Virus record (IMG/VR): IMGVR_UViG_3300020156_000037
Span: 1-49,537 of that record
Source: a virus
DNA: 49,537 nucleotides
Reading direction: 5' to 3' (one strand)
Shown: piece by piece, positions 1,272-49,537 of the stretch
Layout: each line of letters opens with the position of its first letter
How positions within the stretch are numbered: the stretch's first letter is position 1
Translations under genes and position numbers: made by a program
Notes under the pieces: generated by a model
The model's input: only the letters and a program-made list of their open reading frames with translations
The model's database searches: none
Told to the model about the DNA's origin: nothing

Positions 1272-1610
1272 ATGCGAACAGGTGATAAAATCAAGATGTT
1301 AAGAGAGGAAAATCATTGGACCCAAGGAGAACTAGCCAAAAAGTTGGAGCTTTCTCGCTCTTGTGTAGCAAACTGGGAAGTACACAGGACAAGTCCTGGA
1401 AATGATGAGCTTTTAAAACTGTCTGCTTGTTTCGGTGTATCAATTGATGAAATTTTAGGAAATAAAATTCCACCAAAAGAAGAATATATTTCCGTTTCCA
1501 AAAGACATCTAGACTTAAATTTTAAAATTGCACAGTTATCTGGTGAAGATTTGGATTTCGTTGAAAAAGCCATCGATATGGCATTAGAAAGGAAGAATAA
1601 GCCATCATGA
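1272..1610 (+). CDS. CI-like XRE-family repressor (left phage, 112 aa)
   Basis: Starts MRTGDKIKMLREENHWTQ. The XRE helix-turn-helix (WTQGELAKKLELSRSCVANWE) occupies roughly residues 17-40. The protein is too short for a LexA-type self-cleaving peptidase domain, so derepression by RecA-stimulated self-cleavage is unlikely; this is inference. ATG 1272 is preferred over the in-frame GTG at 1263 because AAAGAGG lies 8 bases upstream of it. The stop overlaps the integrase start (ATGA), indicating translational coupling. Confidence 0.8.
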   Translation: MRTGDKIKMLREENHWTQGELAKKLELSRSCVANWEVHRTSPGNDELLKLSACFGVSIDEILGNKIPPKEEYISVSKRHLDLNFKIAQLSGEDLDFVEKAIDMALERKNKPS

Positions 1611-3190
1611 CAAAGGCTGTAGCCTACGCCCGTTATTCATCAGATAATCAAACCGATAACAGCATCGCCGCCCAATTAAGGGCAATAAGAGATTATGCCG
1701 CTAAAAACGGCATTTTTATTACTCGGGAATATATCGATGAAGCTAAAAGTGCCACGACCGATGACCGTCCCGATTTTCTACAAATGTTCACCGACATTGC
1801 GAAAGGCTTAGAAACTGATTATTTATTAATCCATAAACTGGACCGATTTGCCCGTAATCGTTATGATTCTGCAATGTATAGGCGGAAGCTAACTCAGAAT
1901 GGTATTAAATTAATAGCTGTCGACCAACCGCTTGGCGATTCACCCGAGGATAAGCTTCTGGAAGGCCTTTTGGAATCGATGAATGAATTTTATAGTTTGA
2001 ATCTCGCGCGGGAAGTTATGAAGGGCATGAAAGAGAACGCTTTGGCCGGTAAGCATACCGGTGGCAAACCGCCATTAGGGTATGATGTGGACCCATCAAC
2101 CAAAAAATTAGTAATTAATGAACATGAATCAAAAGCGGTAAAAATGATTTTTGAAATGTACATTGCCGGTAAAACTTACTCAGCTATAATTAATCGAATA
2201 AATTCTCTGTTTTATAAAACAAAAGAAAACCGACCCTTCTCTAATACTTCTTTACATTCCATTTTAACCAATGAAAAATATACTGGGACCTATATCTTTA
2301 ATCGTTCCGCTCCAGCTATTAATGGCAAACGAAATAATCATAGTAGCAAATCCGACGACCTCATCATCAGAATCCCCGACTCCTTACCTGTAATAATCAC
2401 CAAGGAAGATTTCGCAATGGTTAAAAAAATTATGGAAAGAAGAAAAAAACAAACCGGTGCTAATCAAGCAAAAGAAACATATCTTTTAACCGGATTAATT
2501 AAATGTGGAAAATGCGGCGCTCCGATGATAGGCAACCGAAAATCAGCCGGTCGAAACAAAACCATTTACCATTCTTACGACTGCAATAATCGGAAAAGAT
2601 TTAAAACTTGTGACGCAAAGTCTGTTAATAAGGAATATGTCGAAAAAATGGTAATTGATAATCTAATGAGTAAGGTGTTTTCTGATCGAGGAATAGTAAC
2701 TTTAACCAACCAATTAAACAAAATTAGAGAAGAAAAATTCAAACAGCAAGCCGATGAATTTAATACTCTAAAAAAAGAATTGGAAGAAATCGAGAACCAA
2801 ATTAAAAACGCTGTAAAGGCAATTATGGCCGGTTTAGATTTGGTGGCTTTAAGGGATGAATTAAGCGAAGCGGAAAAAAAGAAGGTAATCCTAACCCAAA
2901 CTTTAAAAAGTATAGTTAAAAGCGAATTGGCGCCTATCACCAAGGACTTTGTAAAGTCAAAGGTTTCAAAAGATAAAAAAACCATTTCAGAAGGTACTCT
3001 AGAGGAAATAAAAAATGTAGTGCAATCCTATGTAACCGAAGTCCTTGTAAACCCCGACAACATTGACACTACATTAGTTTGTGACTTTGATGGTGGAGGC
3101 GGGGCGCATACTTTCAAATCCAAACTAGATTATCGCATTTTACGCAACCAAAGCCGACCTTCTGAATATAAGAAAACCCTTGTCATATGA
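1607..3190 (+). CDS. int: Large serine recombinase / phage integrase (left phage)
   Basis: 527 aa. The N-terminal resolvase domain begins AVAYARYSSDNQ with the likely catalytic Ser at residue 11. Further features are a DRPDF block, HKLDRFARNRYDS, a Recombinase domain (GKPPLGYD...), a zinc ribbon with CGKCG and a later paired Cys region, and a long coiled coil before the C-terminus. This is the usual order in large serine integrases, which join attP and attB and need a directionality factor for excision. About half of the residues match the integrase at 47921-49510 by eye, but the last 33 codons are identical at base level (from 3091). The gene ends inside a palindromic terminator shared with the convergent gene at 3183. 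Confidence 0.92.
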   Translation: MTKAVAYARYSSDNQTDNSIAAQLRAIRDYAAKNGIFITREYIDEAKSATTDDRPDFLQMFTDIAKGLETDYLLIHKLDRFARNRYDSAMYRRKLTQNGIKLIAVDQPLGDSPEDKLLEGLLESMNEFYSLNLAREVMKGMKENALAGKHTGGKPPLGYDVDPSTKKLVINEHESKAVKMIFEMYIAGKTYSAIINRINSLFYKTKENRPFSNTSLHSILTNEKYTGTYIFNRSAPAINGKRNNHSSKSDDLIIRIPDSLPVIITKEDFAMVKKIMERRKKQTGANQAKETYLLTGLIKCGKCGAPMIGNRKSAGRNKTIYHSYDCNNRKRFKTCDAKSVNKEYVEKMVIDNLMSKVFSDRGIVTLTNQLNKIREEKFKQQADEFNTLKKELEEIENQIKNAVKAIMAGLDLVALRDELSEAEKKKVILTQTLKSIVKSELAPITKDFVKSKVSKDKKTISEGTLEEIKNVVQSYVTEVLVNPDNIDTTLVCDFDGGGGAHTFKSKLDYRILRNQSRPSEYKKTLVI

Positions 3191-3217
3191 CAAGGGCCTT
3201 TTTATTTAAATCGTTTT
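3091..3217. repeat. 127-bp perfect direct repeat, copy 1 (integrase 3' end, candidate att region)
   Basis: Identical to 49411-49537. Identity starts sharply: bases 3090 and 49410 differ, and upstream the two integrase genes diverge. It includes the last 33 codons of the integrase, its stop, and the terminator palindrome. Because the second copy stops at the last base of the window, 127 bp is only a minimum length. It is a candidate attL or site of recombination between related phages. Confidence 0.9.
3177..3204. terminator. Bidirectional terminator between convergent integrase and 3183-3380 gene
   Basis: A perfect 20-base palindrome (3177-3196, CCCTTGTCAT and its reverse complement) is followed by CCTTTTTA on the plus strand and by a GGGTTTTCTT tract on the minus strand. 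The stop codons of both convergent genes lie inside the palindrome, so both proteins end in LVI. Confidence 0.8.
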
Positions 3218-5665: not shown

Positions 5666-6496
5666 TTAATACGCCACTTCAAACATTAAATTAGTCAATA
5701 TCCCTTCAGTGGCAAAATGATTTATATTATAATCAGAATCAATATTTCTTTCAAAATGTCTATCAATCATATGTTCAAAATCATCAAAATCAAGACTCCA
5801 CTCGGAAGCTGCGTATGCCATTTCAGAGTATACCCTTTTTAGCTGATTGGGTTTGACTTTCGGATGTTCTTCCTTAAAGGTGTTTTCGTATTCCTCGAAG
5901 TAATATTTAACGGCTTTCTTTACGTCCTCATTGATATAAACAGAAGGAGAAGAAAAGGAGGAATGTTCGTTTTCGCCAGAAAATGAACCATTATCCTTAT
6001 CATTGTTTTGTATTATTGGGTTTGTATTATTAACGTTAGTATTATTAGTGCTCCCGAATGGAGTATTTAGTTTCTCCGAAAGGGAGTTCCTAGTTCCTCC
6101 CGATTGGAGATTCTTATTGAGTGGTAAGGGTTTCAATGAATTCATTTTCTTTTTTCCTGTTTTAATCAATTCGGCTAAATGAATGTCAGTGGCAGTAATT
6201 TTAAAGTATCTCTTGGCGGGTAACCCCTTGAGTTTATAATCAATTAATCCTTTGGACTTTAAATTTGAAATAGCCGTTCTTTGTGGTTTTTCTCCTAGTC
6301 CGGTACCGGATTGCAAATCGTCTTGAGTGTTGAAGAAATATCCATTTTCGTCTAATTGCCCTCTTTCAGCAAAATAATTATACCTTGAAAGCAACTCACA
6401 AAACAAAACCGCCTCATTCAAACCTATCGCATGAATTAATGCTTTATTTACTGTAATACTTCCGTCTGCTCTTAAAAGTTCCAAAATGGGATTCAT
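5666..6496 (-). CDS. Replication initiator-like protein with N-terminal winged helix
   Basis: 276 aa. Residues 1 to about 110 (NPILELLRADGSITVNKALI..., LIHAIGLNEAVLFCELLSRY, then FNTQDDLQSGTGLGEKPQRTAISNL and a basic KGLPAKRYFKI wing) match the winged-helix start of initiator/replisome-organiser proteins of Firmicutes plasmids and phages. A Ser/Asn-rich linker (about 115-175) joins a helical DnaD-like C-terminal part. It is coupled by ATGA to an RHH gene, like copy-controlled plasmid rep genes. The main phage has another DnaD-like protein at 37819, so this may be a second replication module. Family assignment by recognition only. Confidence 0.65.
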   Translation of the reverse strand: MNPILELLRADGSITVNKALIHAIGLNEAVLFCELLSRYNYFAERGQLDENGYFFNTQDDLQSGTGLGEKPQRTAISNLKSKGLIDYKLKGLPAKRYFKITATDIHLAELIKTGKKKMNSLKPLPLNKNLQSGGTRNSLSEKLNTPFGSTNNTNVNNTNPIIQNNDKDNGSFSGENEHSSFSSPSVYINEDVKKAVKYYFEEYENTFKEEHPKVKPNQLKRVYSEMAYAASEWSLDFDDFEHMIDRHFERNIDSDYNINHFATEGILTNLMFEVAY

Positions 6497-6714: not shown

Positions 6715-6740
6715 ATAAAAAAGACCTCCCGAAGGAGGCT
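6715..6740 (-). terminator. Terminator at the end of the lysis cassette
   Basis: CCTCC-CGAA-GGAGG hairpin with a stable tetraloop-like turn, followed on the minus strand by a run of T. It ends the late operon just after the YiiX-like gene. Confidence 0.85.
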
Positions 6741-7212
6741 AAGTTAACGCCCTATACAAATCCATTGGACTAATTACGTCCGGTTTAACTCCGGGGAGAA
6801 TATTTAATCCCCCGGCTCTTAATATCCGGATAACCGTTTCACTGCAGGTCATGGTTAATTCTCCATTAGCCGGTATCTGTCGGCCGGTTAAACTATAAAT
6901 GCCAGCCGCGATGCAATCACCAAATCCGTAATAACACCCTAACAAATCTCTTATTTCCTGCTCAGCCCCTTTTTGATCGGGAATTTCCACGTTAATAAAT
7001 ACGGCCGACTTATATTTATTATAACGGCCGGCCGGATGCAACCAGACCCCGACATATGGATCTGAATCGATTTTGGATGCAAAGGATTCAATTAAATTCT
7101 TTTCATCGATTATTAGGGCAACATGGGTATATGGTCCTTTGGTTACTTTGCTGATAATCCTAGAGAAAAGGTTATTCTCGTTCCCGGTAAAAACCACGGT
7201 CATTTTTGCCAT
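6739..7212 (-). CDS. YiiX-like permuted papain-fold enzyme
   Basis: 157 aa. The motifs are YTHVALII with His30, a following Glu42, and MTCSETVIRI with Cys123. This His-before-Cys order is that of the YiiX/YaeF (NlpC/P60 superfamily, permuted) group, which act as amidases or peptidases on cell-envelope or lipid substrates. ATG 7212 is chosen because GGAGGTGG lies 5-8 bases upstream and the start overlaps the stop of the spanin-like gene (TAATG). It is the last gene of the lysis cassette. It may help to degrade the envelope, or modify another substrate; this is open. Confidence 0.7.
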   Translation of the reverse strand: MAKMTVVFTGNENNLFSRIISKVTKGPYTHVALIIDEKNLIESFASKIDSDPYVGVWLHPAGRYNKYKSAVFINVEIPDQKGAEQEIRDLLGCYYGFGDCIAAGIYSLTGRQIPANGELTMTCSETVIRILRAGGLNILPGVKPDVISPMDLYRALT

Positions 7213-7664
7213 TAGTCCACCTCCCTGTATATCAGATAAGCAGTAAGCCCACGATAAAACCAAAGTTTAATCTTTAATATCCTGTTTTGTCTTTCCGATT
7301 TCTTCAATAAGTCTAGCAAACTGTTGATTTTGTTCTCCAAGTCGTTGCACTTCGTTTCCAGTTCCTTCGAGTAATTTCCAGCTTTCTCCGCTGATTCTTT
7401 CCAAAGCTGTAACGTTTTCAAGTCGTTCAATGCTTGATTTTTCAAGGACTGAATAATATTGTCTTTCTCGGTCGAGTTCATTTTGTAATCGTTTTGTAGT
7501 GTCTCTAATTGCTTGGTTATCTTTTCGTAATTCGTCTGCAACTCTTTGAGCTTCTCGTGCTGTTCCGCTGATATGGTATATGTAGAATCCGCATAGCAGC
7601 ACGCCGAGAAGAAAACTAGCAATGCCAACGATAAAATAATTTTTATATTTCTCAAACATATCAC
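7212..7664 (-). CDS. Secreted coiled-coil protein, outer spanin-like (host frame of a nested pair)
   Basis: 150 aa from a GTG start that overlaps the amidase stop. A hydrophobic signal segment ends FFSACCYAD, which gives a lipobox-like FSAC or an ordinary cleavage site after CYA. The rest is a long coiled coil with a moderately hydrophobic C-terminus (LWFYRGLTAYLIY). The complete gene 7267-7659 lies inside it in another frame. Overlapping pairs of a membrane protein and a lipoprotein next to endolysin are typical of Rz/Rz1 spanins, which disrupt the outer membrane. The equivalent protein at 42558-43007 shares FSxCCY. Confidence 0.65.
   Translation of the reverse strand: MICLRNIKIILSLALLVFFSACCYADSTYTISAEQHEKLKELQTNYEKITKQLETLQNDYKMNSTEKDNIIQSLKNQALNDLKTLQLWKESAEKAGNYSKELETKCNDLENKINSLLDLLKKSERQNRILKIKLWFYRGLTAYLIYREVD
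7267..7659 (-). CDS. Inner-membrane coiled-coil protein, inner spanin-like (nested)
   Basis: 130 aa. One N-terminal membrane segment (YFIVGIASFLLGVLLCGFYI) is followed by a charged coiled coil. The ATG lies 5 bases inside the start of the overlapping gene (7664). The whole gene is nested in the other frame. Type II membrane topology with a periplasmic coiled coil is the known form of an i-spanin. Located directly after the amidase, as expected for the last step of lysis in a diderm host. Confidence 0.7.
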   Translation of the reverse strand: MFEKYKNYFIVGIASFLLGVLLCGFYIYHISGTAREAQRVADELRKDNQAIRDTTKRLQNELDRERQYYSVLEKSSIERLENVTALERISGESWKLLEGTGNEVQRLGEQNQQFARLIEEIGKTKQDIKD

Positions 7665-8095
7665 ACCCCCAACAATGATTTAACTTTAGATTTCAATTTG
7701 TCCATCGGAAAACGCCGCCCAGGGCAGCTTTTGTAACTTGCAAAACGGTTATGGGTAAAGATATCATTAGAGGTCAATTTGTACCGTTTGCAGATATCAG
7801 CGCATAACTCTGCCAATAGGTTTAAAGCCGCCTCTGGAGGTTCCCCAAGGTCGTAATTGCCGACAACACAGATTCCTATTGACTTGTCATTTTGCCCTAA
7901 ACAATGACTTCCTACGACGTATTCGGCGCGTCCCTTCTGCACCACATACTTATTACCGACCAATTCAATCCCCCAGTGATAACCGATGTCATTCCATTTA
8001 TTGGTTTCAATATGATATTTCCGGATTGCTTTCCAATCCACGACTTGACCGTCCGAGGTAAGAGAATGATGTATTATGATTCGTTGCACGTTCAT
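7661..8095 (-). CDS. N-acetylmuramoyl-L-alanine amidase (endolysin)
   Basis: 144 aa, the size of T7 lysozyme. The Amidase_2/PGRP fold is shown by RIIIHHS (His10 or His9 as zinc ligand), IGYHW, THNRF (His115) and SCPG (Cys124); the second and third zinc ligands are His115 and Cys124 by family knowledge. It cleaves the bond between MurNAc and L-Ala in peptidoglycan. No signal peptide is present, so export depends on the holin. GGAGG precedes the ATG, and the start overlaps the holin stop. Confidence 0.9.
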   Translation of the reverse strand: MNVQRIIIHHSLTSDGQVVDWKAIRKYHIETNKWNDIGYHWGIELVGNKYVVQKGRAEYVVGSHCLGQNDKSIGICVVGNYDLGEPPEAALNLLAELCADICKRYKLTSNDIFTHNRFASYKSCPGRRFPMDKLKSKVKSLLGV

Positions 8096-8553
8096 TTTGT
8101 GATTTCCTCCGTTTTGCCTTTAATTTTAGCCATGAGAAGTTTAAGAACGGCATTGTCCTTTCCTTTTAAGACCATTATTTTTTCTAGATTTTCCAGAACT
8201 GAATAACCTTCAGTTAAAATAATCGCCCCTTCTAGTACCCCTTGCAAAAATGAAATTAATGGAAACTTAGAATATTGATAACCAACTAATAACACACCAG
8301 CATAAATAAATAATTTTACTAATCCACTTTTTAATTTCGCGCTTGACGGTACTATTTGTGGGTTTTCTCTCGCATGGTAATATCCGGTAATGAAATCAGC
8401 GCCACAAAGAATGGGGATTGCAATATACGCCGGTCGAATCACCGGACCGTAACACAATTGTAAAAGCCCAATAAAAAAACCTGCTATAATTTTTACAGCA
8501 GGACTTTTGAAAACTTCTTCGAAAAAATGTTGAAAAACATCCGTCCACGACAT
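8092..8553 (-). CDS. Phage holin (Phage_holin_4 type)
   Basis: 153 aa starting MSWTDVFQHFFEEV. Three hydrophobic segments are visible: IIAGFFIGLLQLCYG, AYIAIPILCGADFITGY and LFIYAGVLLVGYQYS. The ADFITGYYHA segment and the later LEGAIILTEGYSVLENL are typical of the toxin secretion/phage lysis holin family. The ATG at 8553 has AGGCGGTGA at proper spacing. In-frame TTG codons at 8586 and 8592 follow a separate GGAGGTG, so a longer form with charged residues at the N-terminus is possible. Confidence 0.85.
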   Translation of the reverse strand: MSWTDVFQHFFEEVFKSPAVKIIAGFFIGLLQLCYGPVIRPAYIAIPILCGADFITGYYHARENPQIVPSSAKLKSGLVKLFIYAGVLLVGYQYSKFPLISFLQGVLEGAIILTEGYSVLENLEKIMVLKGKDNAVLKLLMAKIKGKTEEITK

Positions 8554-8588
8554 GTCATCACCGCCTTTAATTTTGTCACTATACAATT

Positions 8589-8726
8589 TCAAACACCTCC
8601 AAACTTTCGCCCCGTAAATTTATATGGAAATAATTTACATTTTGTTGTAAACTTTATATATGTCTCGCAAGCTGGTTTTGCGGGGCTAATGCAAGTAGCT
8701 GTCGGGGTTGCCGCCTCGGCAGCCAC
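8589..8726 (-). CDS. Possible small protein between spike and holin (45 aa)
   Basis: GTG-initiated frame encoding a Thr/Ala/Pro-rich start (AAEAATPTATCISPAKPAC) and a basic C-terminus ending GRKFGGV. No clear ribosome site precedes it. A competing frame starts at 8746 by ATGA overlap with the spike gene and gives 30 residues. Genes of this size and position are common between tail fibre and holin genes, but the call is weak. Confidence 0.3.
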   Translation of the reverse strand: MAAEAATPTATCISPAKPACETYIKFTTKCKLFPYKFTGRKFGGV

Positions 8727-36532: not shown

Positions 36533-37822
36533 CTATCTCTTCTTAAAATCTTCAAATTTCGATTGAGCTTTCTTAAACTTTAAATCAAACGTTACATCAT
36601 TGGGCCCAAATCGATTTTTAGCAACATTCCCCTGAATGATCTGCTCATTTAAATCGTTAGTTTTGTAATTATCTTCTTGATAAAGGAAAAATACCGTTGT
36701 TGCGTCCTGCTCGATGGAGCCAGATTCTTTAAGGTCCGAAAGCATTGGTTTGTTTGATTTTCTGCCCTCAACATTCCGGTTTAATTGGCACAATAAAATG
36801 ATTGGAATTTTCAAGTCCCGGGCAATCTTCCTAAAAATTCGAAGGGTTTCGGTAACTTCCAAATCTCTTCGATTTAAATTTCTTTCGGGCTCCACCAATT
36901 GAAGATAGTCAATCATTGCAAGTTTAATATCGTTTTGAGCTTTTAACCGTCTTAGCCTTACCCATATTTGTGAAGCTTTCATGTCAATTGATTCATCAAT
37001 GAAAATTTGTTTGTCTGTTATTTTGTTGGTTGCATATGTCAGCAAAGGCCATTCATTATTTTTCATTAACCTTGGATAATCCAAATGTTTCGAATTGATT
37101 CCTGCTGTTGCTGCCATCATTTTAGCGGTTAATTCTTCTGCGGTCATTTCTAAGGAGGCGATATAAACCGATTCCGTCTGGTTGATTAAGGCATTAAGGG
37201 CCCAAGTGGTTTTCCCGGCTCCCGGGCGACCTGCAATCACGTTAATGCTTGCGTCTCGAAAGCCTCCGGTTATGGCATCATAACTTTCAAACCCGCTTTT
37301 TATAATTTGCACAGTGGTTTCAACCATTTTTGCATCGAGCCCGTTATACACTTCTCTTGCTAACTCCCCGGCCTTCTTGATTCCGGTTTTCTGTTCCGAT
37401 TCCATAATCGCTGCATCTTCTAACATCCCCCGGGAAATAACTTCTCTTGGGTCTCGCCCTTCTTCAAGCTCTTTTTGCTGTTTTTCAATTAAATGCAACT
37501 TCGCCCGGGTAAGAGATTGGTCTTTGACAATTTTGGCGTAATAACTTACTGCTTCATAATTAGGAGTCGTGTTACTCATTTTCAGCAGATAGGCCATATC
37601 GATTCCAGCTTTGCCTTTTATCGCGTCGTTAACGGTTAAGAAATCAAAAGGCGTTTTGTTATCCGATAGGGCAATGCATGCTTTCCATATTTCCCGGGCC
37701 CGGGATTGAAAGAAATCTTCTTCCTTAAGAATTTCCCGGGCTTCGTCAAGTGTCGGGAGCCCGCCCAAAAGAACACTGCCTATTACTGCGTTTTCTGCTT
37801 GTTCGTTGAAAGTCAGTTTCAT
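36533..37822 (-). CDS. dnaB: Replicative DNA helicase (DnaB family)
   Basis: 429 aa. N-terminal domain begins FNEQAENAVIGSVLLGG. The RecA-type core has Walker A GRPGAGKT at residues 198-205, Walker B in AMIDYLQLV, and the LCQLNRNVEGRK and ESGSIEQDA motifs typical of DnaB. It unwinds DNA at the fork. It overlaps the DnaD-like initiator gene by four bases; the initiator likely loads it. Confidence 0.93.
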   Translation of the reverse strand: MKLTFNEQAENAVIGSVLLGGLPTLDEAREILKEEDFFQSRAREIWKACIALSDNKTPFDFLTVNDAIKGKAGIDMAYLLKMSNTTPNYEAVSYYAKIVKDQSLTRAKLHLIEKQQKELEEGRDPREVISRGMLEDAAIMESEQKTGIKKAGELAREVYNGLDAKMVETTVQIIKSGFESYDAITGGFRDASINVIAGRPGAGKTTWALNALINQTESVYIASLEMTAEELTAKMMAATAGINSKHLDYPRLMKNNEWPLLTYATNKITDKQIFIDESIDMKASQIWVRLRRLKAQNDIKLAMIDYLQLVEPERNLNRRDLEVTETLRIFRKIARDLKIPIILLCQLNRNVEGRKSNKPMLSDLKESGSIEQDATTVFFLYQEDNYKTNDLNEQIIQGNVAKNRFGPNDVTFDLKFKKAQSKFEDFKKR

Positions 37823-38568
37823 AGCGAATCCTCCAGAAGCTTAGCCCGTTCTCTGCCCGGGTCAACTTCGAACATTGGGATTTGGTTTGTATTGATGTAA
37901 TCCTCGAAAGGTTTGTCGGGCCCTAAGAATGTCGCTCCATGTTTGATAAATTTTGTCTCGGAGCCCTTCTTTTCTATCGCGTAATTCTTAGCCGCTTGAA
38001 TCATATCAACTGGAGAATAATCTTCCTTTAATCTCGTATTCCAACATCGAAATGCTGCCGACTTTCCCTTCTTGTTGGGATACTCTTTCCAGAATGATTC
38101 AAAGTCAGGGGAATAAGACATATCTTTTTTATTTTCATTCTTTACTTTCTTACATTCTTGTTTGTGTATCGTCTGTTGTATCGTCTGCTGTCTTTCTGTT
38201 GTATCGTCTGTTGTCTCGACCGTTGTATCGCCACCTTGATAAAACCCATAATTGACAACGGTTAGCGTTGTATACTTCGTTGTACCGTTTTTGATACACA
38301 TTTTTTCCATGGAAAGTACATCGAGAAAACGCCGAACTTTGCTTCTACTCCAATTCCACCGGTTTGAAAGTTTTATTTCAGATGTCAACCATTGACCTTT
38401 TTCTACCGCAATCAACTCGCCATCGATTAAAATTTTATTATCTTTGTGATTGGCGTTTAGTATGATGTCGATCCATGCTTCAGCCTTGCTAAAGACTCGC
38501 TTTTCATTCCAAAGGGAATTGTCTAAAATTTTTCGGTAAAGTTTTACCCAACCGCCTTCTGGCTTCAT
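37819..38568 (-). CDS. Phage replisome organiser (DnaD-like)
   Basis: 249 aa. The N-terminal winged helix (GGWVKLYRKILDNSLW, then SKAEAWIDIILNANHKD and LSNRWNWSRSKVRRFLDVL) is the phage replisome-organiser start. A low-complexity Thr/Gln linker, encoded by 12-bp tandem repeats, joins a C-terminal DnaD-like domain (FESFWKEYPNKKGKSAAFRCW). It should bind the origin and load DnaB. Confidence 0.85.
   Translation of the reverse strand: MKPEGGWVKLYRKILDNSLWNEKRVFSKAEAWIDIILNANHKDNKILIDGELIAVEKGQWLTSEIKLSNRWNWSRSKVRRFLDVLSMEKMCIKNGTTKYTTLTVVNYGFYQGGDTTVETTDDTTERQQTIQQTIHKQECKKVKNENKKDMSYSPDFESFWKEYPNKKGKSAAFRCWNTRLKEDYSPVDMIQAAKNYAIEKKGSETKFIKHGATFLGPDKPFEDYINTNQIPMFEVDPGRERAKLLEDSL
38166..38236. 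repeat. Tandem 12-bp iterons inside the initiator gene, probable replication origin
   Basis: Six near-identical units in the plus-strand reading: GTATCGTCTGTT (38166), GTATCGTCTGCT (38178), an 11-base variant (38190), GTATCGTCTGTT (38201), GTCTCGACCGTT (38213), GTATCGCCACCT (38225). They lie in the linker of the initiator gene. Iterons inside the initiator gene are the usual origin in lambda-like and many Firmicutes phages, so this is the best candidate for the phage origin. Confidence 0.7.
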
Positions 38569-42241: not shown

Positions 42242-42297
42242 TTGACAATTCCCTCACTTTTTGCTATATTTTAACTACCTTTGATATTTTTCTTTTG

Positions 42298-42320
42298 CCG
42301 CTTTCTAAGCGGTCTTTTTT
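42298..42320 (+). terminator. Plus-strand terminator inside the minus-strand early operon
   Basis: CCGCTT-N3-AAGCGG (42298-42312) followed by TCTTTTTT. On the minus strand no T run follows, so it would stop only rightward (antisense) transcription. Located at the end of the gene at 42319. Confidence 0.55.
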
Positions 42321-42561
42321 ATTTAGTTGCAATGAATAACATTAGGTGTCGTGTTCTGAAGCTAAATACCTCGTCTGACCAAATTGGTCTTTTGATTAAA
42401 CGCCCACTGTAAACGATTTTGCCATCTGATGTTGACTCAATATTGAAAACTCCGTCTTTATCCCACGATGCTTTAACTTCTTTATCGCGCCAACTTGGAC
42501 TTAATACCCGCAACCGTTTTGCTAAGATAACGGATGCCAGCGTTCCTACAACTTCATTCAT
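42319..42561 (-). CDS. Hypothetical protein (80 aa)
   Basis: MNEVVGTLASVILAKRLRVL, then beta-rich VKASWDKDGVFNIESTSDGK. Possibly an SH3-like fold. It overlaps the spanin-like gene by four bases. Confidence 0.55.
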   Translation of the reverse strand: MNEVVGTLASVILAKRLRVLSPSWRDKEVKASWDKDGVFNIESTSDGKIVYSGRLIKRPIWSDEVFSFRTRHLMLFIATK

Positions 42562-43007
42562 AACATCGCCCCCACGATTCTTATCAATTGTCTGACCGTC
42601 ATTCCTACCGCAACACCGACACTACCGAAAATCCATTTTTCTCGCTCCAATCTTTTAATTTTTTGGTTTGCTACTTTCAAGGATCTGTTGGCAATCTGCA
42701 ATAATTTGTAAATTATCCTTAACTCTTCTTTGCTCCATTTTAATTCTGTTGATTGTTGCGCTACTTGCATCTTTAATCTCACCGATTCTCTTTCCAAAGA
42801 GTCCAAGACTGTCCGCGATTTCTTCAAGTCCACTTTGGATGTTTCCAAATCGGTTACTAACTTGTTGGAGTTTACTGCAAGCTTGATTAAGTTCTGTGTT
42901 AGCTTCTTTGCCTGTTTGTTGCTCAATGTTACCTGACCATAGCAGCAAGATGAAAATAACAGTGCAAGCAGTAGTAAAAGCGATATACAACTTTTTAAGC
43001 ATTTCAT
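42558..43007 (-). CDS. Secreted coiled-coil protein, second outer spanin-like gene
   Basis: 149 aa. Signal segment MKCLKSCISLLLLLALLFSS followed by CCYGQ, then coiled coil and a C-terminal hydrophobic stretch (WIFGSVGVAVGMTVRQLI). The FSxCCY motif, length, and the nested partner gene are the same as at 7212-7664. ATG is 5 bases before the ATG of the nested gene. Unlike the first pair it lies in the early region, far from the endolysin. Confidence 0.65.
   Translation of the reverse strand: MKCLKSCISLLLLLALLFSSCCYGQVTLSNKQAKKLTQNLIKLAVNSNKLVTDLETSKVDLKKSRTVLDSLERESVRLKMQVAQQSTELKWSKEELRIIYKLLQIANRSLKVANQKIKRLEREKWIFGSVGVAVGMTVRQLIRIVGAML
42655..43002 (-). CDS. Inner-membrane protein, second inner spanin-like gene (nested)
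   Basis: 115 aa. N-terminal membrane segment LYIAFTTACTVIFILLLW, then a helical periplasmic part with many Glu/Gln/Lys. It is fully inside 42558-43007 in another frame. The pattern is identical to 7267-7659 although the sequences are diverged. Confidence 0.62.
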   Translation of the reverse strand: MLKKLYIAFTTACTVIFILLLWSGNIEQQTGKEANTELNQACSKLQQVSNRFGNIQSGLEEIADSLGLFGKRIGEIKDASSATINRIKMEQRRVKDNLQIIADCQQILESSKPKN

Positions 43008-44835: not shown

Positions 44836-45351
44836 TTATAAATTCAATTTGAAAGGAGATACGATAATCCGAGGTTCTACATAAACCGGTTTCACTTCGC
44901 CGCCGTTGGGGTTTTTAAGCAATACCCAAGTTCCTTCAGCGGATTGGGGAGAATATAAACCATTGGGGTCGGCTTGGGGCAAACTCCCGAATCCACTATT
45001 GTAACCACCTTCATACACTTCTTTTTCAGGGTTAGTAAATTGGGTTGCGTATGGAATGCCGTAACCAATCGTTTCGCCTAAGTAAATCAGTTTGCCACTC
45101 AACTCATTCATAATGTAGGTATAAGTCACAAGCCCCTCTTGGTCGCGTAACTCTAGGATTTCTTTTAGCAATCGACGTTCGCGGAAATTCTTGATTGCTG
45201 GCATACCTACCGCCGAAGTGCCTTCTTTGAGGATGTTTTCTTGCTGAGCTTGTTGAACTTCATCGCTGCTTTGTTCTATTCCGTCAACACATCCACTAAC
45301 CAATAAACTCGATGTGATAACCAAAACCACCAAAATAATCATTTTTTTCAT
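44836..45351 (-). CDS. Phage lipoprotein
   Basis: 171 aa. A lipoprotein signal MKKMIILVVLVITSSLLVSGC with a clear lipobox LVSGC. Mature part: ILKEGTSAVGMPAIKNFRER, LLKEILELRDQEGLVTYTYI, IGYGIPYATQFTNP. The pattern is that of a family of phage lipoproteins that occur with a small membrane protein; function unknown. It overlaps the gene 45348-45674 by four bases. Secretion to the outer membrane would fit a diderm host. Confidence 0.75.
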   Translation of the reverse strand: MKKMIILVVLVITSSLLVSGCVDGIEQSSDEVQQAQQENILKEGTSAVGMPAIKNFRERRLLKEILELRDQEGLVTYTYIMNELSGKLIYLGETIGYGIPYATQFTNPEKEVYEGGYNSGFGSLPQADPNGLYSPQSAEGTWVLLKNPNGGEVKPVYVEPRIIVSPFKLNL

Positions 45352-47525: not shown

Positions 47526-47924
47526 ATGAATGAAAACACCAGCATTTCAGAATATATAAAAGCCAAAAGAGAAGCACATGATTTATCACAAAGACAATTG
47601 GCAGAATTAAGTGGGGTCAGTAATACAGAAATATGGCAAATAGAATCCGGAAAGAGACAAAAGGTTCAGCCTGCTATCCTCCGCGCAATGGCTCCCCATA
47701 TCGGTTCAAGCTATGAAGAATTAATGAAAATTGCAGGTTATTTCCCAGAAGAATCTTCTTTTAACTTCTCGTTTACCGATGATGAAGAATTGCCGGAATA
47801 CGTCATTGAAGGTATTGGTTTTATGAGAGCTGCCTATCCCAATCTAAGCGAAAGCGAATATAAAACTATGCTTCAATTGGCGCAGAGTTACTACAATACA
47901 ATTATGGAGGCTAAGAAAAAATGA
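47526..47924 (+). CDS. CI-like XRE-family repressor (main phage)
   Basis: 132 aa. Helix-turn-helix LSQRQLAELSGVSNTEIWQI with the following ESGKRQK; the C-terminal part (SFTDDEELPEYVIEGIGFMR) is helical. No S24 peptidase domain is present. ATG 47526 is 8 bases after GGGGG; ATG 47520 is possible. Overlaps the integrase start (ATGA), like the left-segment pair. Confidence 0.82.
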   Translation: MNENTSISEYIKAKREAHDLSQRQLAELSGVSNTEIWQIESGKRQKVQPAILRAMAPHIGSSYEELMKIAGYFPEESSFNFSFTDDEELPEYVIEGIGFMRAAYPNLSESEYKTMLQLAQSYYNTIMEAKKK

Positions 47925-49510
47925 ACGCCATAGCCTATTATCGTTTTTCTTCTAGCAATCAACACGAGGAAAGCATAGAAGAACAACAAGAAGTAGTGCG
48001 TCAATACGCCGATAAAAACAATATAACGATAATCAAGGAGTATGTTGACCGGGCCGAAAGTGCAACAACCGATGACCGCCCAAACTTTAAATTAATGACC
48101 TCTGAAATCACATCTGGCGCATTTGCACCGGATTTTTTATTAGTCCACAAAACGAACAGGTTCGCTAGAAATAGTTATGACGCAGTAGTCTATAAACACG
48201 AATTAGGAAAACGAAATGTAAAGGTTATAGCGGTTACTCAACCGATTGGAGACGGGCCGGAAGGAATCATTTTAGAGAGGCTTTATGAGGCGTTAGATGA
48301 GTATTATAGTGCCAACCTTAGTATAGAAGTTAAGACCAAAATGAAGCAACATGCGAAGAAAGCAAAGCACCTGGGCGGTACTCCCCCGCTTGGATATGAC
48401 GTATTTTTCGACGGAGAATCAAGGAAATACAAAATCAATGAATCTGAAGCTCATATTGTCAAGACTATCTTTTCGATGTATACAGCCGGAAAAAGTTATG
48501 GGGCAATTATTAAGCATTTGAACGAAAACAATTATAAGACAAAAAAGGAAAGACCATTTCAGCAAACATCAATTTATGAAATTTTGCGAAATGAGAAATA
48601 CACCGGAACCTATGTCTATAATAAAACCGTTTCAAAAACCAATGGGAAAAGAAACAACCACGCCTTAAAAGATGATGACCAAATTGTCAAGATCCCCGAT
48701 GCTATCCCGGTTATTATCCCGAAAGAACAATTCGAACAAGCCAAACAAATTATGGACAAGCGCAAACTAGCACCGGCTGCTTCTAAAGCAAAGGAAGTAT
48801 ATTTACTTACTGGGTTAGTAACCTGCGGCAAATGCGGTGGAACTATGGTGGGTAATCGGGCTAGATGGGGACGTAATCAAGAGGTTTACGCCTTTTATGA
48901 GTGCAACACTAGAAAAAGGCTAAAAACTTGTGATATGAAAGCCATAAACAAAGATTTTCTTGAAACTAAAGTTCTGGATTATCTCGATGACAACCTTTTC
49001 AATGAGGAAAATATACCAAAACTCGTAACAATTTTAAATTTAGCGCATAAAGAGAAAAACAAAAACAATATTTTAGAACTGGAACACGCCAAATCCGAAT
49101 TAAAGAAAATCGAAGAAAAAATAGGAAATATGATAAAAGCAATCTCGGACGGTCTTTATAATCCATCTATGAAAAACGCTTTGAGCGAACTAGAAGAAGC
49201 AAAAAGCAACACCTTAAAGATTATCTCCATAAATTCAAATAAAAGCGAATTTGAACTAACCGAAAAGATGATCTGGAATTATGTTAAAAAAGATAAAGAA
49301 GGTCTCCGTTCTGGAGACCCCTTAGTCAAGAAAAGTATAATTTCGAGTTATGTTAGAAGTATCACTATATTTGATAACTACATTGCCATTGAATGCAGTT
49401 TGGATTTGACTGGTGGAGGCGGGGCGCATACTTTCAAATCCAAACTAGATTATCGCATTTTACGCAACCAAAGCCGACCTTCTGAATATAAGAAAACCCT
49501 TGTCATATGA
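47921..49510 (+). CDS. int: Large serine recombinase / phage integrase (main phage)
   Basis: 529 aa. Resolvase domain with YYRFSSSNQ (catalytic Ser10 or 11), ESATTDDRPNF, HKTNRFARNSYDA, GGTPPLGYDV (Recombinase domain), zinc ribbon CGKCGGTMVGN, and a coiled coil. Similar throughout to the integrase at 1607-3190, with an identical last 33 codons. A change of one codon from the usual LDR to TNR in HKTNRF is notable because the Arg/Asp segment is conserved in other members. It should catalyse phage integration. Confidence 0.92.
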   Translation: MNAIAYYRFSSSNQHEESIEEQQEVVRQYADKNNITIIKEYVDRAESATTDDRPNFKLMTSEITSGAFAPDFLLVHKTNRFARNSYDAVVYKHELGKRNVKVIAVTQPIGDGPEGIILERLYEALDEYYSANLSIEVKTKMKQHAKKAKHLGGTPPLGYDVFFDGESRKYKINESEAHIVKTIFSMYTAGKSYGAIIKHLNENNYKTKKERPFQQTSIYEILRNEKYTGTYVYNKTVSKTNGKRNNHALKDDDQIVKIPDAIPVIIPKEQFEQAKQIMDKRKLAPAASKAKEVYLLTGLVTCGKCGGTMVGNRARWGRNQEVYAFYECNTRKRLKTCDMKAINKDFLETKVLDYLDDNLFNEENIPKLVTILNLAHKEKNKNNILELEHAKSELKKIEEKIGNMIKAISDGLYNPSMKNALSELEEAKSNTLKIISINSNKSEFELTEKMIWNYVKKDKEGLRSGDPLVKKSIISSYVRSITIFDNYIAIECSLDLTGGGGAHTFKSKLDYRILRNQSRPSEYKKTLVI

Positions 49511-49537
49511 CAAGGGCCTTTTTATTTAAATCGTTTT
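49411..49537. repeat. 127-bp perfect direct repeat, copy 2 (integrase 3' end, candidate att region)
   Basis: Identical to 3091-3217, ending exactly at the last base of the window. Offset between copies is 46,320 bp. It is the candidate attR, or the closing overlap of a circular assembly path. Confidence 0.9.
49497..49524 (+). terminator. Terminator after the main phage integrase
   Basis: Second copy of the 20-base palindrome (49497-49516) followed by CCTTTTTA. Same sequence as at 3177-3204. Confidence 0.8.

Follow-up and report, generated by a model that had tools for sequence, protein, structure and literature searches.

The early region of the viral stretch analysed here (the window, 49,537 nt; IMG/VR record IMGVR_UViG_3300020156_000037) carries two nested frames for putative envelope proteins that start almost together (pair 2). 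We consider it somewhat probable that they form a second, horizontally acquired two-component spanin-like pair, which would be Rz/Rz1-like in action and idle until the endolysin acts. Pair 2 looks like a lysis pair taken from another phage and not like a wholly new kind of system. As far as can be read from the DNA, the evidence points to two genuine coding frames, homology to pairs found in lysis cassettes, an early location and coupling to the neighbouring genes.

Two co-starting frames in one stretch of DNA

Pair 2 and its immediate surroundings consist of the following features:

43411-43004, minus strand: upstream neighbour, 135 aa, with a homologue in phage G001
43009-43019, minus strand: ribosome-binding region GGAGGAAGGGG, read from the sequence
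43007-42558, minus strand: outer frame (o), 149 aa, with signal sequence, long helix and hydrophobic C-terminal tail
43002-42655, minus strand: nested frame (i), 115 aa, with N-terminal transmembrane segment and long helix
42561-42319, minus strand: downstream neighbour, 80 aa, whose start overlaps the o stop (ATGA)

The i frame lies entirely inside o, which is the +1 frame of i, and the 149- and 115-residue lengths, the 5-base offset between the starts and the LFSSCCYG motif given in a preliminary description of this DNA are all present. The leader preceding the two starts is GGAGGAAGGGGAATGAAATGC, with GGAGG 7 nt ahead of the o ATG and AAGGGG 6 nt ahead of the i ATG. With this spacing one ribosome-binding region can serve both starts, and o and i would consequently be made together. 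The o gene overlaps both adjoining genes by ATGA, one at either end, which suggests a translationally coupled operon; the downstream neighbour is without any family match.

To assess the second frame, synonymous codons were resampled from the phage's own usage. With the o protein fixed, the i frame was open in 1 of 4000 resamplings, and with the i protein fixed the o frame was open in 2 of 4000; the third frame across pair 2 contains 22 stops. Coding scores were 0.03 for o and 0.22 for i, as compared with 0.31 ± 0.09 in-frame and -0.65 ± 0.24 out-of-frame for the known genes of the phage, and scores below those of single-coding genes are expected where two proteins use the same DNA. Geometry alone yielded 31 non-redundant pairs of co-starting frames, with about 90 codons or more, in 738 kb (the window plus fetched loci, some of which overlap each other). 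Strongly hydrophobic N-termini in both frames were found in only four of these, namely the members of the family to which pair 2 and a further pair of the window (pair 1) belong. The window itself holds exactly two nested co-starting pairs with two hydrophobic N-termini (43007-42558/43002-42655 and 7664-7212/7659-7267). Judged by the resampling and the coding scores, the second open frame in pair 2 is not a product of chance, in support of the earlier claim that both frames are real.

These results also bear on the quite improbable alternative that only o is made, as a single-chain, u-spanin-like bridge with an N-terminal lipobox-like site and a C-terminal hydrophobic helix, the nested frame being a relic. 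The o protein does fit PROSITE PS51257, and its C-terminus includes a hydrophobic stretch (mean 1.35 over 15 residues), but the odds of an open nested frame are about 1 in 4000, and this frame outscores the outer one as coding sequence and retains its transmembrane start. In addition, the text of a spanin survey gives the prototype u-spanin, T1 gp11, a predicted mainly beta-structured periplasmic domain (PMC6139136). In shallow-alignment structure models, i is a single helix over residues 2-110 (pLDDT 87), with an N-terminal hydrophobicity of 2.58 at residue 7, and o consists of a signal helix, a low-confidence loop at 22-25 and one helix over 30-148, that is about 119 residues or roughly 18 nm if straight.

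The early operon around the pair

Some 35 kb separate pair 2 from the endolysin, and the genes around the pair are early ones. In its leftward operon a gene for an HNH endonuclease lies upstream of the pair, genes for Gam-like, Erf-like, DnaD-like and DnaB-like proteins lie downstream, and this setting bears out the earlier statement that the pair sits in the early region, far from the endolysin. From this position pair 2 would be an early pair. One strong promoter-like site could drive this early operon:

47443-47415, minus strand: promoter-like site, 11/12, 17-nt spacer, TG before -10

This site adjoins a divergent repressor-like gene. Between it and pair 2 there is no minus-strand terminator-like site, and no strong promoter-like site was found close before pair 2.

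The related phage G001 contains a homologue of the upstream neighbour (L052:1841-1437, 34% identity) that is followed by no nested pair. A few hundred bases on, it has a 30-residue stretch with 63% identity to the gene at 41617-41414, and small unrelated genes occupy the place of pair 2. The upstream neighbour thus occurs without the pair, which marks pair 2 as an optional insert, and of the mobile module proposed earlier an optional module is supported.

Several other features of the phage were observed. Antisense to the operon, plus-strand positions 42242-42313 hold an 11/12 promoter-like site with TG before the -10 and a terminator-like hairpin directly after it (42297-42313), possibly giving a very short RNA or present by chance. 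An early 171-aa protein (44836-45351) belongs to phrog_24725, a family of unknown function, and shares 60% identity with a hypothetical protein from Synechococcus phage S-SRM01, an unexpected partner. Two different large serine integrase genes (1607-3190 and 47921-49510) have their 3' ends covered by an identical direct repeat of about 127 bp (3091-3217 and 49411-49537). The repeat resembles an attachment site situated within the 3' end of the integrase gene; the length of the phage would then be about 46.3 kb, and the leftmost 3 kb would be part of a neighbouring, tandem element.

Relatives of the pair in lysis cassettes

The second nested pair of the window, pair 1, belongs to the lysis cassette:

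8092-8592, minus strand: holin, first gene of the cassette (Phage_holin_4_1, over the Pfam cut-off)
7661-8095, minus strand: endolysin, an N-acetylmuramoyl-L-alanine amidase (Amidase_2, E 2e-21), immediately upstream of pair 1
7664-7212, minus strand: outer frame (o) of pair 1, 150 aa from GTG 7664 or 147 aa from TTG 7655
7659-7267, minus strand: nested frame (i) of pair 1, 130 aa

Pair 1 overlaps or abuts the end of the endolysin gene, which itself comes after the holin. Its outer frame has no ATG there and would start at GTG 7664, 5 bases ahead of the i start, or at TTG 7655, 4 bases behind it; the frame offset said to be equal in pairs 1 and 2 holds with either start. The i protein of pair 1 weakly matches the Rz-like spanin family phrog_214 (E 5.5e-4). 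Directly after pair 1, with its ATG overlapping the o stop, lies a gene (6739-7263) that matches phrog_1128 (E 2e-13) and no Pfam family, and that might be a further lysis-associated gene. The phage also has two DnaD/replication-initiation-like proteins, one downstream of the lysis genes (5666-6496) and one at 37819-38568.

With the pair 1 endolysin as query we found two viral contigs, each with a homologue of this endolysin (69% and 63% identity) followed by a nested pair. They are L004, which belongs to phage G001 (132/152 aa), and L005, which is IMGVR_UViG_3300050336_000026 (115/136 aa). In all four pairs o is the +1 frame of i and the starts are 2-5 nt apart, and an amidase endolysin precedes three of the four at about 0-200 bp. 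Close relatives of pair 2 were sought among viral contigs and, with o and i proteins as queries, in INPHARED, with no significant result, and pair 1 o returned nothing significant among plasmids. Terminase, holin and upstream-neighbour queries gave few or no useful contigs, and a conserved early gene gave two partial contigs, neither of which matched pair 1 o or the endolysin. Only four members of the family were identified, without close homologues in annotated phages, and an alignment of its o proteins was too diverged to serve for a scan.

The similarity between pairs was evaluated by residue shuffling and by shuffling of 7-residue blocks, the latter being strict since it keeps short matching blocks. 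Pair 2 o scored 123 against L005 o, versus 45 ± 8 for shuffled residues and with 0 of 1000 block shuffles reaching this score. Pair 2 i scored 69 against L005 i, versus 32 ± 6 for shuffled residues; this was not significant under block shuffling (149 of 1000), and with o held fixed the expectation was 35 ± 9 with a maximum of 70 in 500. Pair 1 resembled L004 in both o (118; block shuffle 1/1000) and i (103; 10/1000). Across these groups the o proteins were alike by residue shuffle (z 5-7) and less so by block shuffle (7 to 110 of 1000), pair 1 o against pair 2 o scoring 99 versus 43 ± 8 with 30 of 1000 block shuffles, and the i proteins, including those of pairs 1 and 2, showed no likeness in these tests. 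On these comparisons the pairs fall into two subfamilies, pair 2 with L005 and pair 1 with L004. Homology between pair 2 and L005 rests mainly on o, on the shared design and on an i similarity above the fixed-o expectation. The outer proteins of pairs 1 and 2 also look homologous, moderately so under the harsher null. The preliminary description had treated the two pairs as independent examples; the reality of both frames stands, but their independence does not.

Since pair 2 is nearest to L005 and pair 1 to L004, pair 2 looks acquired and not freshly duplicated. We rejected a recent duplication inside the phage on account of this grouping and of the unlike i proteins. The likeness of the two o proteins in the absence of any between the i proteins would also fit a role of pair 2 as a modifier of the cassette spanins, with early o2 or i2 entering mixed complexes with pair 1 and tuning or delaying outer-membrane disruption. 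We give this proposal very little weight, as pair 2 retains a complete i partner of its own. Alternatively, a former lysis pair might have been re-used early, where it would change the envelope or block the entry or lysis of a second phage. This is unlikely in our view. It would agree with the place of pair 2 in an early operon, with the optional nature of the module and with an intact pair 1 at the lysis cassette that leaves pair 2 free to diverge. However, Pfam and PHROGs searches revealed no similarity to a known exclusion protein or exclusion family, pair 2 has no strong promoter or terminator of its own that would serve its expression from a silent prophage, and its closest relative lies in a lysis cassette. 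Because pair 2 is nearer to the L005 lysis-cassette pair than to pair 1, its early position says little for a function outside lysis; the spanin genes of T4, too, are placed apart from its holin and endolysin (PMC6139136). We found no evidence supporting the envelope-changing or excluding role suggested earlier.

Comparison with known spanins and a possible host

The text of the survey distinguishes embedded, overlapped, separated and unimolecular spanins and, for the embedded ones, places the o start at 0.4-0.5 of i in about 70% of cases (PMC6139136). In the literature searched, including the main text of the survey, no described spanin pair has both genes starting together. Like lambda Rz/Rz1, pair 2 encodes two envelope proteins in the same DNA with o in the +1 frame of i, its i combines long helices with a membrane anchor at the N-terminus, and homologous pairs follow a holin and an endolysin. 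Lambda Rz1, in contrast, begins inside Rz and is an unstructured lipoprotein, whereas the pair 2 genes co-start, the outer gene extends past the nested one, and o is a long helix of a family in which the lipobox is not conserved. The overlapped P2 LysB/LysC genes share the +1 frame and an o gene that extends past the end of i, but overlap only partially, while i of pair 2 lies wholly inside o from the first codons. T4 PseT.3/PseT.2 resemble pair 2 in gene location, away from the holin and endolysin (as given in the text of the survey, PMC6139136), but are separate, non-overlapping genes. The unimolecular T1 gp11 shares with pair 2 o an N-terminal export signal and a C-terminal hydrophobic helix, but has a true lipobox and a beta-rich periplasmic domain and needs no partner. 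The L005 pair, which lies in a lysis cassette, shares both design and subfamily with pair 2; it differs in GTG starts that share one G, in having no lipobox and in a 60-aa membrane-protein gene between the endolysin and the pair.

Several findings favour the spanin-like reading. The i protein of pair 2 is predicted to have the one N-terminal transmembrane segment and helical periplasmic domain of a two-component i-spanin, and the subunit genes overlap as nested, co-starting frames in all four family members. Three of the four pairs (pair 1, L004 and L005) lie behind or near an endolysin, the usual though not obligatory spanin site, which pair 2 does not occupy. Matches to Rz-like spanin PHROGs are weak but repeated (L004 i, 4e-5; pair 1 i, about 6e-4); for pair 2 no named spanin family was matched significantly (best phrog_89, E 0.8). 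Counted against this reading are the missing lipobox, a defining trait of o-spanins, in L004 and L005 (half of the family), the redundancy of pair 2 with pair 1, a host, and hence an outer membrane, known by inference only, the failure of the i likeness to L005 under block shuffling and the small family of four.

We infer the membrane topology, complex formation, timing and lytic role of pair 2 as follows. Transcribed with the early genes, i would be i-spanin-like, with an N-terminal inner-membrane anchor and a long periplasmic helix, and o would be its exported partner, a long helix preceded by a signal sequence and ending in a hydrophobic C-terminal tail. Both would reside in the envelope, kept apart by the peptidoglycan mesh, and a pair made early would presumably stay idle until the endolysin acts. 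After removal of the mesh by the late-made holin and endolysin, pair 2 would help to disrupt the outer membrane, beside or instead of pair 1.

The nature of the exported partner is less conventional. Each of the four o proteins combines a signal sequence with a long helix and a hydrophobic tail (C-terminal hydrophobicity 1.35 in pair 2, 0.71 in pair 1, 1.79 in L005 and 2.01 in L004). The loose PROSITE PS51257 pattern fits o of pairs 1 and 2, where the lipobox is weak, and neither L004, which has no cysteine at the position, nor L005, which has a proline at -1; none of the four fits the strict [LVI][ASTVI][GAS]C pattern. With two of four members lacking a lipobox, we rejected a firm lipoprotein assignment for o. 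By eye, a plausible signal-peptidase I site is present at the same place in all four (CYA/D, CYG/Q, CWA/G and TFG/A).

Negativicutes are a plausible host, which we propose from mixed signs: Firmicutes best hits for replication and integrase genes, the strength of the Shine-Dalgarno sites, and spanin-like genes, from which two membranes would follow. Negativicutes are without LolA and LolB (PMC5007114), and in Veillonella parvula neither outer-membrane lipoproteins nor homologues of Lol proteins have been identified (PMC10665443). In such bacteria a lambda-type scheme with a lipoprotein as o-spanin would not be expected to work unchanged, and a non-lipid o partner could suit a host of this kind, for example among the Negativicutes. 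A tentative and rather doubtful extension is that the four pairs form a lipidation-free spanin-like family, with o as a signal-peptidase-processed helix with a hydrophobic tail that suits Lol-less diderm Firmicutes, a common ribosome-binding site for both frames, and a spare pair moved into an early operon. In the literature searched, no paper treated spanins in Negativicutes phages. With full-length, nearly fully overlapping and co-starting frames, pairs of this type are a compact case for the study of dual coding. How phages of diderm Firmicutes breach the outer membrane has, as far as we found, not been described, and a family without a conserved lipobox would make this step testable.
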